Shown here piece after piece: positions 28,346 through 63,938 of a DNA stretch of 64,000 nucleotides (position 1 is the stretch's first letter; each line of letters opens with the position of its first letter). Both the position numbers and the translations under genes were made by a program. The notes beneath the pieces were generated by a model, which did no database searches, had not been told where the DNA came from, and worked only from the letters and a program-made list of their open reading frames with translations. This stretch comes from Brachybacterium sp. FME24 (GTDB lineage Bacteria > Actinomycetota > Actinomycetes > Actinomycetales > Dermabacteraceae). The DNA is taken from assembly GCF_014897705.1 (NCBI RefSeq), contig NZ_JABUXV010000003.1:248001-312000 (forward strand), read 5' to 3'.

Positions 28346-28522
28346 GGTCATCCCCTCGGTGTCGAACCGGTCCCGGTGCGCGCACGACGCACAGATCACC
28401 CCTATGCACGACGACGCCGGTGCACGCCCTGGGGCGCGCACCGGCGTCGGAGACTGAGCTCAGGTGTGCGCTGAACTGCTCGATCTCCTACTGCTCGTAC
28501 CTCGCAGCACGTCGATCGTAGA

Positions 28523-28735
28523 TCAAGCAGGCTTCTTGCCGTAGCGGGCCTCGAAGCGGGCCACGCGGCCGCCGGTGTCGAGGATCTTCTGCTTGCCGGT
28601 GTAGAAGGGGTGGCACGCGGAGCAGACCTCGGTGCTGATCGCACCGTCGGACTTGGTGCTGCGGGTGGTGAACGAGTTGCCACAGGTGCACTTCACCGTG
28701 GTCTCGACGTACTCGGGGTGAATCTGAGCCTTCAT
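28523..28735 (-). CDS. rpmE: 50S ribosomal protein L31 (zinc-binding form)
   Basis: L31 of 70 residues starting [20 protein letters not shown]. It retains four cysteines (KCTCGN and [12 protein letters not shown]), so it is the zinc-containing C+ form; many actinobacteria carry a second cysteine-free copy elsewhere, used under zinc limitation. ATG 28735 is preceded by GAAGGAGAGAC. In the ancestral order rho is directly upstream; here a sugar-use cassette separates them. Confidence 0.96.
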
Positions 28736-35418: not shown

Positions 35419-37620
35419 TCAGTCGGCGTTGCGACCGTTCACGCTGGGCGTGTTCTTCTGGACCGTCATGAGGAACTCGGTGTTCGACTGGGTCTTCTTG
35501 ATCCGCTCCATCAGCAGCTCGAGCGCCTGCTGCTGCTCGAGGGACCCGAGCACGCGGCGGAGCTTCCACATGATGGCCAGCTCCTCCTTGCCCATGAGCG
35601 CCTCTTCGCGGCGGGTGCCGGAGGGGTTGACATCGACGGCCGGGAAGATGCGCTTGTCCGCGAGGTTGCGCGAGAGTCGCAGCTCCATGTTGCCGGTGCC
35701 CTTGAACTCCTCGAAGATGACCTCATCCATCTTGGATCCGGTCTCCACCAGGGCGGAGGCCAGGATGGTCAGCGAACCACCGTGCTCGATGTTGCGCGCC
35801 GCACCGAAGAAGCGCTTCGGCGGGTAGAGCGCGGACGCGTCCACGCCACCGGAGAGAATGCGGCCGGAGGCCGGAGCGGCGAGGTTGTACGCACGGGACA
35901 GACGCGTGATCGAGTCCAGCAGCACGACCACGTCGCGACCCATCTCCACCAGACGCTTGGCACGCTCGATCGCGAGCTCGGCGACGATCGTATGGTCCGA
36001 GGCAGGGCGGTCGAAGGTCGAGGCGATGACCTCGCCCTTGACCGTGCGCTGCATGTCGGTGACTTCCTCGGGGCGCTCGTCGACCAGCACCACCATGAGG
36101 TGGACCTCGGGGTTGTTCACCGTGATCGCGTTGGCGATCTGCTGCATGATGATCGTCTTGCCGGCCTTCGGGGGCGCGACGATGAGGCCGCGCTGGCCCT
36201 TGCCGATCGGGGAGACCAGATCGATCACGCGGGTCGAGAGGCCGGTCGGGGCCGTCTCCAGGCGAAGTCGCTCGTCCGGGTACAGCGGGGTCAGCTTGCT
36301 GAAGTCGACCCGCGAGCGCGCCTTGTCCTGCGGCAGGCCATTGACGGTATCGACCTGGACCAGGGCTGCGTACTTGCTCTGGTTGCCGCCGCCACCGCCC
36401 TTGCCGCGACGGTTGCGACCGCCGCCGTAATGCTGCGGCTGCTCGACCTGCTGGTCCTCACCGTCGCGAGGAGCCTTCACCTGGCCGGTGATCGCATCGC
36501 CCTTGCGCAGGCCGGCGCGCTTGACCTGGTTCATGGTCACGTAGATGTCGCTCGGCCCGGGCAGGTAGCCAGTGGTGCGCACGTAGGCGTTGTTGTCCCG
36601 GATGTCGAGGATGCCGGCAACGGTCATCAGCTCCTCGCCGTCGCGGGAGTCGGAGCCGTCCTGCTGATCATTGCGAGAGCCCTGGTTGCCCTGAGATCCC
36701 TGGCTGCCCTGAGAGCCCTGGTTGCTCTGGTTGCTCTGAGATCCCTGGTTGCCCTGGTTGCCGTAGCCGCCCTGGTCATTCTGGGACCCGCGGCCGCGGC
36801 GCTTGCGGTCGCGGGAGCGGTTGCGGCTGCGGGAGCGGCCACGACGGTCGTCGTCGTAATCGTTGCCCTGGCCCTGACCCTGGTCGTCGTCGCTCTCGCC
36901 GGAGCGATCCGGCAGCTCGATGTCCTCGAGACGACGGCGCTGGCTGTCCTGCTGGTTGCTGCGACGATCCTGACGGTCCTGACCCTGCTGGCGGCCGCGG
37001 TTGTCCTCGCGACCCTCGTCCTGACGATCCGAGCCCGAGCGACCAGTGTCGCCGGAGCGGGAATCGTCACGACGGGAATCGTCGGAACGGGAGTCATCCC
37101 GACGGGAGTCGTCCCGACGAGTGCTGCGACGCGCGCCGCCACGGTCTCCCTGCTCTGCCTGATTCTGCTCTGCCTGATTGCCTTCGCGGTCGGGCATCTC
37201 GAGGCCGAGCTCCGGAGCGTTGTCGGCGCCCTGGTCACGGCCCCGGGAACGGGAACGGCTGCGCGAGGAGGGCTGGTCGGAGTCGGCCTGCGAGGCCGGC
37301 GCCTGGTCCTGCTTCGCCGACTCCTGCTGCGGTGCCGCTTCCTGCGTGGAGCTGACGGGAGCGGACTGCGCCGGAGCGCTTTTCTGCGTCGGAGCGGTGC
37401 TCTTCTGCGAGGCGCTGTTCTGCTGCGGGTCGCTGCGTTCTGGGGGCGCGGCGGAAGTAGAGGCGGCGGGGGCCGACGAGGGGCCACCCCCGCGGATCGC
37501 GTCGATCAGCTCGCCCTTACGCAGGCGACGAGCGCCTTTGATGCCGAGTCCGGCCGCGATGGCCTGGAGTTCGGGGAGCTTCTTCGCCGCGAGATCTGCG
37601 CCAGAGGTGGTGTCGTTCAC
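35419..37620 (-). CDS. rho: transcription termination factor Rho with long disordered insert
   Basis: Rho (733 residues against about 420 in E. coli). The N-terminal Rho-N helical domain (residues 8-45, KKLPELQAIAAGLGIKGARR) is separated from the rest by about 280 residues rich in Gln, Asn, Ser, Arg and Asp, with runs of DDSR repeats and later NQGSQ repeats. The RNA-binding domain starts near residue 328 (LMTVAGILDIRDNNAYVRT), and the ATPase has PPKAGKTIIMQQ and VVLLDSITRLSRAYN. GTG 37620 follows AGGAAGGAACCCGG. Long inserts here are known from high-GC actinobacteria, where they add RNA affinity. A long leader lies upstream. Confidence 0.95.
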   Translation of the reverse strand: MNDTTSGADLAAKKLPELQAIAAGLGIKGARRLRKGELIDAIRGGGPSSAPAASTSAAPPERSDPQQNSASQKSTAPTQKSAPAQSAPVSSTQEAAPQQESAKQDQAPASQADSDQPSSRSRSRSRGRDQGADNAPELGLEMPDREGNQAEQNQAEQGDRGGARRSTRRDDSRRDDSRSDDSRRDDSRSGDTGRSGSDRQDEGREDNRGRQQGQDRQDRRSNQQDSQRRRLEDIELPDRSGESDDDQGQGQGNDYDDDRRGRSRSRNRSRDRKRRGRGSQNDQGGYGNQGNQGSQSNQSNQGSQGSQGSQGNQGSRNDQQDGSDSRDGEELMTVAGILDIRDNNAYVRTTGYLPGPSDIYVTMNQVKRAGLRKGDAITGQVKAPRDGEDQQVEQPQHYGGGRNRRGKGGGGGNQSKYAALVQVDTVNGLPQDKARSRVDFSKLTPLYPDERLRLETAPTGLSTRVIDLVSPIGKGQRGLIVAPPKAGKTIIMQQIANAITVNNPEVHLMVVLVDERPEEVTDMQRTVKGEVIASTFDRPASDHTIVAELAIERAKRLVEMGRDVVVLLDSITRLSRAYNLAAPASGRILSGGVDASALYPPKRFFGAARNIEHGGSLTILASALVETGSKMDEVIFEEFKGTGNMELRLSRNLADKRIFPAVDVNPSGTRREEALMGKEELAIMWKLRRVLGSLEQQQALELLMERIKKTQSNTEFLMTVQKNTPSVNGRNAD

Positions 37621-61493: not shown

Positions 61494-62288
61494 ATGTCCA
61501 GCCGCTATGCCGATGATCTGCGCCTTGCCCATGTACTCGCCGATGCCGTGGATCAGCTGACCATGTCCCGCTTCAAGGCGCAGGATCTCGAAGTCACCAC
61601 GAAACCCGATCTCACCGAGGTCACCGACGCCGACAAAGCCGCCGAACAGTTGGTGCGCTCCCAGCTCGCCCGCTCCCGCTCGCGCGACCAGGTGATCGGC
61701 GAGGAGTTCGGCACGACCGGTTCAGCCTCCCGGCAGTGGGTCATCGATCCCATCGACGGCACCAGCAATTTCGTGCGAGGAGTGCCCGTGTGGGCCACTC
61801 TCATCGGTCTCATCGAGGACGGCCGCCCCGTGGCGGGCCTGGTCTCCGCCCCCTCGCTCGGTCGTCGGTGGTGGGGCGGCACCGATGCGGGAGCCTGGAC
61901 CGGCTCGCGCATCAACAACGCCTCGCGACTCAAGGTCTCCGGCGTCGATCGCCTCGAGGAAGCCTCACTGTCGTACTCCTCATTGCACGGGTGGGCGGAT
62001 CACGACCGTCTCCCCCAGATGCTGAACCTCATGCAGCGCTTCTGGCGCACTCGGGCCTACGGCGACTTCTGGTCGTACATGCTCGTGGCCGAAGGTGCCG
62101 TCGATGCGGCGTGCGAACCCGAGCTCGCCCTGCACGACATGGTCGCCCTGGTCCCGATCCTCACCGAGGCGGGCGGCCGCTTCACGTCGCTGGATGGGCA
62201 GGACGGCCCCTTCGGAAGCAACGCCGTGGCCACCAATGGCCTGCTGCACGAGGAGATCCTCACCGCCCTCGCCCCCCGCGACCGCTGA
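61494..62288 (+). CDS. hisN: inositol monophosphatase family protein, probably histidinol-phosphatase
   Basis: A 264-residue metal-dependent phosphatase. The metal site is visible as GEEFG, WVIDPIDGTSNFVRG (DPIDGT) and the late CEPELALHDMVALVPIL. It follows rsgA, as in many actinobacteria where this gene encodes HisN, the IMPase-type histidinol-phosphate phosphatase of histidine synthesis. Inositol-phosphatase activity cannot be excluded from sequence alone. The stop at 62286-62288 is immediately followed by the 53-bp repeat array. Confidence 0.85.
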   Translation: MSSRYADDLRLAHVLADAVDQLTMSRFKAQDLEVTTKPDLTEVTDADKAAEQLVRSQLARSRSRDQVIGEEFGTTGSASRQWVIDPIDGTSNFVRGVPVWATLIGLIEDGRPVAGLVSAPSLGRRWWGGTDAGAWTGSRINNASRLKVSGVDRLEEASLSYSSLHGWADHDRLPQMLNLMQRFWRTRAYGDFWSYMLVAEGAVDAACEPELALHDMVALVPILTEAGGRFTSLDGQDGPFGSNAVATNGLLHEEILTALAPRDR

Positions 62289-62592
62289 GCAGAGCTGGTC
62301 GACGTGCTGCGAGGCACGAGCGGCAGGAGAACAGCACACCAGCAGAGCTGGTCGACGTGCTGCGAGGCACGAGCGGCAGGAGAACAGCACACCAGCAGAG
62401 CTGGTCGACGTGCTGCGAGGCACGAGCGGCAGGAGAACAGCACACCAGCAGAGCTGGTCGACGTGCTGCGAGGCACGAGCGGCAGGAGAACAGCACACCA
62501 GCAGAGCTGGTCGACGTGCTGCGAGGCACGAGCGGCAGGAGAACAGCACACCAGCAGAGCTGGTCGACGTGCTGCGAGGCACGAGCGGCAGG
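62289..62592. repeat. 53-bp tandem repeat array, five full copies plus 39 bp
   Basis: Copies start at 62289, 62342, 62395, 62448, 62501 and 62554 and look identical; the last stops after 39 bp. A unit begins GCAGAGCTGGTCGACGTGCT and ends GAGAACAGCACACCA. Because 53 is not a multiple of 3 and the unit lacks stop codons on both strands, all six frames are open throughout. CAGCAC-A-CCAGC-AGA-GCTGG-TCGAC-GTGCTG forms a hairpin across each of the five unit junctions (first at 62332-62362). No spacers, so not CRISPR. Confidence 0.97.
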
Positions 62593-62671
62593 TCAATCGC
62601 AGGTGGTGAGTGCACAGGTCCGGGTCGCCGAGGCAGGGCGGACGGCGCACGTCGGGGCGCCCCGGCATCGG

Positions 62672-62717: not shown

Positions 62718-63938
62718 ATGACCGTCAAGCGCGTCGCCCTGCTGACCGCGGGTGGCTATGCCCCCTGCCTGTCCTCCGCCGTCGGCGGCCTCATCGAGCG
62801 GTACCACGAGCTGGTGCCGGATGTCGAGATCATCGCGTACAAGCACGGCTACTGGGGGCTGCTCTCCGGCGACAAGATCGTCATCGACGACGAGGTGCGC
62901 GCGAAGGCCGGGCTGCTGCACAACTACGGCGGGTCACCCATCGGCAACTCCCGCGTGAAGCTCACCAACACAGCTGACCTCGTGGGCCGCGGTCTGATCC
63001 AGGAGGGTGAGAACGCCCTCGAGGTCGCCGCGAGCAAGCTCGTCGCGGACGGGGTCGACGTCCTGCACACCATCGGTGGCGACGACACCAACACCACCGC
63101 CGCGGACCTCGCCAAGTACCTCCACGACAACGACTACGACCTGCAGGTCGTCGGGCTGCCCAAGACGATCGACAACGACATCGTGCCGATCCGCCAGTCC
63201 CTCGGCGCCCAGAGCGCCGCCGAGCAGACCAGTGTCTTCGCACAGAACATCGTTGCCGAGCACGGATCGAACCCGCGCATGCTCATCATCCACGAGATCA
63301 TGGGTCGCGCCTGCGGGTACCTCACCGCGCAGGCGGCGGAGTATTACCAGCAGTGGCATGCGAAGCAGGAGTGGCTGCCCTCGATCGGCCACAAGGCCGA
63401 GCGCTGGGATGTCCACGCCGTGTTCCTGCCTGAGCTGGCCCTGGATATCGACGCCGAGGCCGAGCGCTTGAAGACGGTCATGGACGAGGTCGGGTGCGTG
63501 AACATCTTCCTGTCCGAGGGTGCCGGTATCCCCGAGATCGTCGCCGAGATGCAGGCTCGTGGCGAGGAGCCCGAGAAGGATCCCTTCGGTCACGTGAAGA
63601 TCGACAAGATCAATCCGGGCCAGTGGTTCGCGGACCAGTTCTCCGCCAAGCTCGGCGCCGAGAAGTCCATGGTCCAGAAGTCCGGGTACTTCTCGCGCTC
63701 CGCGAAGGCCAACGCGGCGGATCTGCGCCTGATCAAGTCGATGACCGACCTCGCCGTGCAGGTCGCCCTCGAGGGCGGATCCGGTGTCATCGGCCATGAC
63801 GAGGGCAACGGCAACGTGCTGCGCGCCATCGAGTTCGAGCGGATTGCCGGGCACAAGGCGTTCGACATCTCCCAGCCCTGGTTCCACGAGGTCATGGAGC
63901 GCACCGGGCAGAAGATCGTCGCGTCCGGATCGCACTGA
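62718..63938 (+). CDS. pyrophosphate-dependent 6-phosphofructokinase
   Basis: A 406-residue phosphofructokinase. The phosphoryl-donor loop reads IGGDDTNTTA: an Asp where ATP enzymes have Gly (GGDGS), the accepted mark of PPi use. PKTIDNDIVP carries the matching Lys. Fructose-6-phosphate residues lie in IHEIMGRACGYLTA. The enzyme is reversible with PPi and can serve both glycolysis and gluconeogenesis. ATG 62718 is the start, with AAGGGA somewhat far upstream. It stands alone, separated from hisN by the 53-bp repeats and followed by a hairpin. Confidence 0.88.
   Translation: MTVKRVALLTAGGYAPCLSSAVGGLIERYHELVPDVEIIAYKHGYWGLLSGDKIVIDDEVRAKAGLLHNYGGSPIGNSRVKLTNTADLVGRGLIQEGENALEVAASKLVADGVDVLHTIGGDDTNTTAADLAKYLHDNDYDLQVVGLPKTIDNDIVPIRQSLGAQSAAEQTSVFAQNIVAEHGSNPRMLIIHEIMGRACGYLTAQAAEYYQQWHAKQEWLPSIGHKAERWDVHAVFLPELALDIDAEAERLKTVMDEVGCVNIFLSEGAGIPEIVAEMQARGEEPEKDPFGHVKIDKINPGQWFADQFSAKLGAEKSMVQKSGYFSRSAKANAADLRLIKSMTDLAVQVALEGGSGVIGHDEGNGNVLRAIEFERIAGHKAFDISQPWFHEVMERTGQKIVASGSH

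Follow-up and report, generated by a model that had tools for sequence, protein, structure and literature searches.

The perfect tandem array behind the hisN-like gene in the 64,000-nucleotide stretch of the Brachybacterium sp. FME24 genome analysed here (the window) is one decayed member of a genus-wide repeat family located on the stop codons of genes. Each unit comprises a 40-nt hairpin core and a short spacer, the whole element being about 55 nt in length. On balance we consider it probable that this is an inserted RNA element which buries the stop codon, is confined to Brachybacterium as searched and acts at translation termination and at the mRNA 3′ end. The array, its flanking genes and a further copy in the window comprise the following features:

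61494..62288, plus strand: hisN-like gene of the inositol-phosphatase family, ending CGC TGA (open reading frame; PF00459, E = 2.6e-46)
62285..62294, plus strand: CTGA (end of the last codon and stop), then GCAGAG, the tail of a spacer (sequence)
62289..62592, plus strand: tandem array of five 53-bp units and one of 39 bp, all identical (TRF, unit-by-unit split)
62295..62334, plus strand: hairpin core 1, CTGGTCGACGTGCTGCGAGGCACGAGCGGCAGGAGAACAG (covariance model R1, 64.4 bits, E = 1.7e-17)
62335..62347, plus strand: 13-bp locus-specific spacer CACACCAGCAGAG, present again after every full core (sequence)
62348..62387, plus strand: hairpin core 2 (covariance model R1)
62401..62440, plus strand: hairpin core 3 (covariance model R1)
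62454..62493, plus strand: hairpin core 4 (covariance model R1)
62507..62546, plus strand: hairpin core 5 (covariance model R1)
62560..62602, plus strand: truncated core 6, with unit identity stopping at 62592 (covariance model R1, 36.3 bits, E = 7.7e-8)
62718..63938, plus strand: pfk, the next gene (PF00365)
28480..28519, minus strand: single core directly behind rpmE (coding 28526-28735, minus strand; PF01197) (covariance model R1)

As originally predicted, a perfect 53-bp array starts at the first base past the hisN TGA (62286-62288), with successive units of 53, 53, 53, 53, 53 and 39 bp that all equal the first, and TRF places it at 62288-62592 (period 53; 5.8 copies; 100% matches). The predicted location between hisN and pfk is borne out by the Pfam assignments of both genes, and the two hexamers that had been singled out, GTGCTG and CAGCAC, both occur in the unit. 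The array was further said to be free of stop codons in all six frames, and TGA, TAA, TAG and their complements each occur zero times, so that there is indeed none. This state is peculiar to the hisN copy, where CTGATC has become CTGGTC in all units; in most other family members TGA stands at the beginning of every unit. The suggestion that a transcript would form a row of hairpins stands in outline, the 321-nt region folding better than 100/100 shuffled sequences (z = -2.9), but the proposed GTGCTG/CAGCAC stem does not: the evolutionarily conserved pairing is CTGATC/GATCAG plus RCTGC/GCGGY. A CGTGC/GCACG hairpin was likewise rejected, as all four bases occur at similar frequency at the N of its loop and the stem is therefore not conserved, the conserved stem being RCTGC/GCGGY.

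The unit is dispersed through its own genome. A DNA search identified six further places besides hisN, a pattern search returned 33 core matches (four for the reversed control), and covariance model R1 gave at least 44 matches at E ≤ 1, which resolve into about 11 strong loci, with a handful of weak isolated hits besides. The strong loci follow hisN, an MHS-type transporter gene, glpK, pstB, rplI, a winged-helix regulator gene, rpmE, rplA, a DUF5679 gene, upp and prs. Carrier genes were identified by Pfam, glpK and the MHS-type transporter to family level only, except for pstB and the winged-helix regulator, which we take to be such from their sequences. Membership in a dispersed, known repeat family had been named as grounds against the original prediction; the copies are dispersed, but no description of the family was found in the open-licence literature searched. 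A search of six loci against Rfam yielded no match above the gathering score, with sub-threshold hits only, and a known RNA family was thus rejected.

Several variant copies can be observed. In the rpmE copy of the window (28480-28519, minus strand), the first stem is disturbed by an apparent small duplication (TTGATCTACGATCGACG). The third unit of locus L005 and locus L230, behind rpmE of genome G014, share one type of loop expansion, with CTCCC...GGGAG inserted in the core, and its presence at two loci in two species suggests that variant cores may move between loci or arise repeatedly. The element is also located behind a groEL-like gene, presumed to be such from its GGM-rich C-terminus, at L207 (G019) and L253 (G016), where the cores are very different, one being a long GC-rich palindrome.

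Matches to R1 below 1e-10 are present in 28 of 38 Brachybacterium genomes, assigned to the genus from the labels in an exact-pattern scan, while the remaining ten have none or weak ones; G008, G009, G017, G042, G044 and G048, with weak model hits alone, were counted as lacking the element. The best candidates, at most 150 per genome (44, with stricter filters, in a scan of the order), were scored, and copy numbers are therefore lower bounds. The exact-pattern scan, with one genome per species, recovered 50 stretches, 47 from Brachybacterium and three from a single MAG labelled 'Actinomycetales bacterium'. The order scan of 149 genomes gave matches in seven of the ten same-genus genomes listed, and beyond the genus one weak, unrelated-looking hit in each of two genomes, G151 and G165. 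These two were rejected as members, neither having a stop codon on a long open frame; one is coding-like and the other lies in a 24-bp tandem repeat. The latter, L347 of G165, from another genus of the order, resembles GTCGAGTGCCGCGAGGCCATGCTG, and its weak model match is probably unrelated. In the hisN gene tree of 37 species, rooted at its midpoint, one group contains 26 of the 27 carriers, while G005, a fragmented genome with at least 25 copies, sits among the non-carriers.

Folding and covariation were analysed in 113 arrays, comprising 71 and a further 42 found with a pattern that fixes 24 core bases and leaves the bases at -1 and +1 free. Arrays entered this set on the strength of an in-frame TGA and a good core, irrespective of the -1/+1 bases, and as such provide no test of position. 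Across the genus the core has the consensus CTGATCGACGTRCTGCGAGGNACGAGCGGYAGGAGATCAG; after it comes a locus-specific spacer of mostly 13-16 bases, which is identical to moderately diverged inside one locus. The outer stem is formed by the last codon base(s) and CTGATC, paired with GATCAG, and then by tandem G.A pairs, read from the alignment in 110 and 109 of the 113 arrays. Past the first G.A, the stem continues with C-G, U-A, R-Y, C-G and U.G pairs, an inner stem of variable make-up, another tandem G.A and finally a loop of the GNA or CNNG type. The inner stem varies through the gain of whole pairs (CTGGC/GCCGG, CTCGC/GCGGG) or the swap of C-G to U-A, and the G.U pair at L14-R1 is present in 109/113 arrays. 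Pairing exceeds the shuffled mean at L5-R9 (110 arrays; shuffled: 86.1), L12-R3 (103; shuffled: 90.6) and m2 (110; shuffled: 84.2), with 0/2000 shuffles as high. Covariation was modest in the first alignment of 39 sequences, where one pair changed on both sides, as reached by 64/500 shuffles, and the score was reached by 3/500; in the larger set of 113 arrays it is plain.

Predicted folding energies are -21.4 kcal/mol for the sense strand (mean z = -3.9) and -13.7 kcal/mol for the antisense strand (z = -1.7), with the sense value the lower of the two in 110/113 arrays; in the predicted fold the UGA has a mean pairing probability of 0.93 (n = 113). Together with the G.U pairs, this far better folding of the sense strand points to a hairpin that would act at the mRNA level. 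An A.C at stem position 4, found in 10/113 arrays, pairs better on the antisense strand and counts against a purely sense reading. A DNA-level hairpin was rejected, as the consensus DNA fold is weak (z = -1.6) and the G.U pairs favour sense RNA.

Across seven genomes, the in-frame stop TGA of the upstream gene forms core bases 2-4 in 69/88 arrays, gene calls being crude and based on open frame and GC3; the same holds for 63 of the 75 well-matching cores (score ≥ 22), the other 13 of the 88 being weak cores that score below 22. These arrays derive from 91 regions, of which L233, L246 and L261 gave no core in a simple scan. For six of the genomes, grouping by eye produced 83 clusters, from which 80 regions were used and L349-L351 left out. 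The 19 off-register arrays include L210, with TAG in the same place, and L240, which is mis-grouped and in register. In 13 of the 19, the core starts 6-21 nt after the first base of a co-directional stop; among these, relics of the first unit are seemingly kept at hisN, upp, L234 and L247, while four represent an intercistronic form. L245 and L255 are probable false hits, and L258 and L282 are without a stop nearby. The elements lie at the 3′ ends of genes in sense orientation, and neighbouring units are on one strand in all lists. The hexamer CTGATC occurs 61 times in called genes of the window, 15 times between genes and once at a gene end (crude calls; 82% coverage), so that the presence of a target cannot by itself account for where the elements are located.

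The rare intercistronic form (L214, L266, L270 and L281) lies between close genes, its arm ending in GGGAGGAG just before the next start. At L214, L270 and L281, where the downstream open frame was confirmed, this 3′ arm GGGAGGAG is at the expected Shine-Dalgarno position of the next gene, an arrangement reminiscent of mycobacterial interspersed repetitive units (MIRUs). A natural CTGATC stop without the element is furthermore found in the called gene 35419-37620 (minus strand) of the window, which also harbors clusters of 9-, 15-, 18-, 27- and 30-bp imperfect tandem repeats at 36675-36838 and 37049-37435.

The pairing extends into the coding sequence. The -1 base, which is the second position of the final codon, is paired with the +1 base past the core in 107/113 arrays, against 46.9 when shuffled and 0/2000 shuffles as high. 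With one array per gene family, 58.9/63 are paired, against 25.4 when shuffled (maximum: 40). Of the 26 families with two or more members, 7 contain two Watson-Crick types, in which a different final residue goes with a matching difference in the partner base, as in orthologues that end ...THQA with C-G and ...THQG with G-C; in 3/26 families one member is unpaired at this position. The last codon is GNC in 95/113 array genes but in 8/42 window genes. Copying from arm to arm of the hairpin could mimic part of this covariation.

Probable traces of insertion lie on the far side of the hairpin. A second CTGA follows 12-17 nt behind the hairpin arm in 68/100 arrays and in 26/37 single-unit loci, and the bases before it match the gene end further than pairing would require, as far as about -6 in multi-unit arrays. 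In single units this repeat is present at position -4 in 12/26 cases (shuffled: 5.9; 0/3000 shuffles as high), although it lacks significance at some positions, such as -2. Among the rplA orthologues, full cores are present in 6/28 read species, a shortened core occurs in G045, and apparent relics are carried by G001, G022 and G046. The empty site GGCCTGATCCTCCCGGT is found at the rplA end of G014 and G043, and the same string follows the array in G000. The gene-end repeats and the empty rplA sites indicate insertion, and are the pattern expected if the final codon, the stop and the next two bases were duplicated in the process. Mobilisation by a Y1/RAYT transposase was rejected, PF01797 being found in 0/38 genomes, the own genome included (control rings: 5/14). 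Any function of the element must be dispensable, since 10/38 congeners are without the element and most of the read rplA orthologues without a full core.

In the explanation that we favour, the element would spread by insertion beside stop codons with duplication of the target, the machinery acting in trans, and its units would then multiply in tandem and be homogenised locally. It would persist at stops because the hairpin works in the mRNA: the ribosome would have to open it before decoding the final codons and the stop, and we propose that the element can as such slow or gate termination. After the ribosome has departed, the hairpins would cap the 3′ UTR before the terminator, as has been proposed by analogy for REPs, and multiple units would form 3′-UTR barriers too. 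The action on translation is one that we infer; the sense-strand structure, the stop position and the coding-end covariation are properties of the sequences themselves. A more specific form of this explanation, which we regard as tentative and rather doubtful, is a self-installing termination device, a genus-specific mobile RNA which would insert at stop codons, duplicate the last codon and stop, and complete its hairpin with the last codon of the host gene, so that, if true, the stop would be released by the translating ribosome alone. The stop segment repeated beyond the hairpin could also pair with the same arm, and might thereby constitute a switch responsive to a ribosome halted at the stop codon.

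It is unlikely, if deserving of close attention, that the element is a purely selfish miniature one, whose own GATCAG(N)C would pair with a (G)NCTGA(T/G)C target in the manner of an IS200/IS605 guide. Stops would then be the least harmful insertion sites, and the matching last codon would reflect target choice rather than selection on the RNA. The direct target repeats on both sides and the patchy distribution are in line with such an origin, as is the target-like CTGA(T/G)C at the empty rplA sites and also in G043, G009 and G042, which are counted as without the element; guide-target pairing has a precedent in IS200/IS605, as described in the available portion of PMC8266576. CTGATC is, however, commoner in intergenic regions (15 sites) than at stops (1 of 42 genes) of the window by crude gene calls, yet only two of the 88 arrays, L258 and L282, are without a nearby stop, in addition to the two probable false hits. 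The conserved G.U and tandem G.A pairs and the sense-strand bias are, moreover, unexpected for a DNA guide, and the Y1 transposase is absent from 38/38 congeners.

A plain 3′-UTR stabiliser or terminator-like hairpin array, in which the exact overlap with the stop is incidental, is improbable. One exact stop register in 69/88 arrays and the covariation with the last codon argue against it, the core is without a U tract, and several arrays have terminator-like hairpins behind them, as judged by eye. Hairpins behind the arrays average -28.0 kcal/mol against -22.2 kcal/mol in shuffled sequence, which accords with the stabiliser or terminator, but those at or below -18 number 56 against 54 in shuffled sequence, out of 63. 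The next gene is co-directional in 35/63 cases and convergent in 28/63 (crude gene calls), and the carriers include rplA, rplI, rpmE, prs and upp, all of which would suit such a role.

Comparison among species suggests that the hisN array is a recent instance of the element. A core is found behind hisN in this species alone, out of 37 with a readable hisN end, the scan covering 450 nt behind the gene or less where the locus ended earlier (37/37 loci read). The identity of all units and the lack of a core in the scanned ≤450 nt of the 36 other species agree with the recent expansion or homogenisation that was originally proposed. Since the element occurs throughout the genus, the notion of a fresh minisatellite is retained for the last step only. 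The ATG of pfk lies 432 nt from the first base of the hisN stop, against 107-171 nt in nine parsed relatives (motif parse of 10/30 hisN loci). Short strings behind hisN in G011 and G014, CTGAGCGACG and TGAACGACG, may be chance or old relics of an element once wider at hisN.

The hisN array has no stop-bearing first core, which by its sequence it appears to have lost, and its last unit is cut. It thus does not itself bury the stop codon, and its core 1 folds only moderately (z = -1.6), both of which count against the favoured explanation. The CTGA and GCAGAG at 62285..62294 are a possible relic of a deleted first unit, to judge from other arrays. With that first core apparently gone, only the 3′-UTR part of the proposed function should remain, and we interpret the array as an instance that is young, homogenised at its locus and reduced in its predicted function. 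That it is instead a chance minisatellite or an assembly artefact is scarcely credible, for although all units are identical and the draft assembly of 67 contigs means that the copy number may be wrong, the five full cores each match R1 at E = 1.7e-17 (the array being among the 39 sequences of R1) and related arrays are present in single-contig genomes.

A coding base that is set by the last residue of the protein covaries with a noncoding repeat base, which provides an unusually clean tie to termination. Orthologous genes with and without hairpins at their stops, in many species of one genus, furthermore constitute a natural set for determining how RNA structure at the stop affects termination, rescue and 3′-end decay, and raise the question of how so small an element finds stop codons.

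Among known repeats, minisatellites (VNTRs) share the head-to-tail units, which are identical in some arrays, and the differences in unit number among loci and species, but the core described here is conserved across loci and species and shows structural covariation. CRISPR arrays have unique spacers, whereas the hisN spacers are identical and those of the other arrays shown are identical to moderately diverged. In a SECIS element UGA is recoded as selenocysteine and coding continues downstream; such an extension is unlikely here, as many units are 53, 55 or 56 nt long and successive units therefore fall in different reading frames.

The REP, BIME and REPIN elements, as described in the portions available of PMC3733652, PMC12306157 and PMC8266576, are short imperfect palindromes, some with conserved mismatches, which are dispersed and mostly located behind coding regions, and in these respects are shared with the present element. 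The available text of PMC3733652 mentions untagged REP-like sequences in M. tuberculosis, with 'actinobacter' and 'Brachybacterium' each having zero mentions there, while that of PMC12306157 counts palindromes in three Actinomycetota and states, citing another study, that E. coli REPs less than 16 nt from the stop can lower translation. Like REPs, the Brachybacterium element is a many-copy, mostly extragenic palindrome, but, unlike in REPs, its stem also takes in the last bases of the gene and the stop codon, with the final codon of the host completing it. The GTAG/CGTC tag of REPs is unpaired outside the palindrome, whereas GTAG/GCAG lies inside the stem here. REPs commonly pair inversely (HH/TT), while the present units are head-to-tail in one orientation only, and REPs of the GTAG type occur with a RAYT or Y1 transposase, in contrast to the 0/38 genomes with PF01797 in this case.

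MIRUs are short actinobacterial repeats which, according to the available portion of PMC12548453, are thought to be mobile and insert at start codons, carrying an ORF that is coupled to the gene behind it. The main form of the present element is located at the stop, has no coupled downstream start and is predicted to form a stop-burying hairpin, and in these described features differs from MIRUs. Many MIRUs are about 53 bp in length, occur in tandem and target TGA-containing overlaps. A MIRU-like arrangement is seen by eye at L270 and L281, where a mini-ORF overlaps both neighbours by ATGA/GTGA, but not in the main form. We rate REPs and MIRUs as the closest relatives in kind, and the Brachybacterium element as an interspersed hairpin repeat that lacks the REP-defining features.
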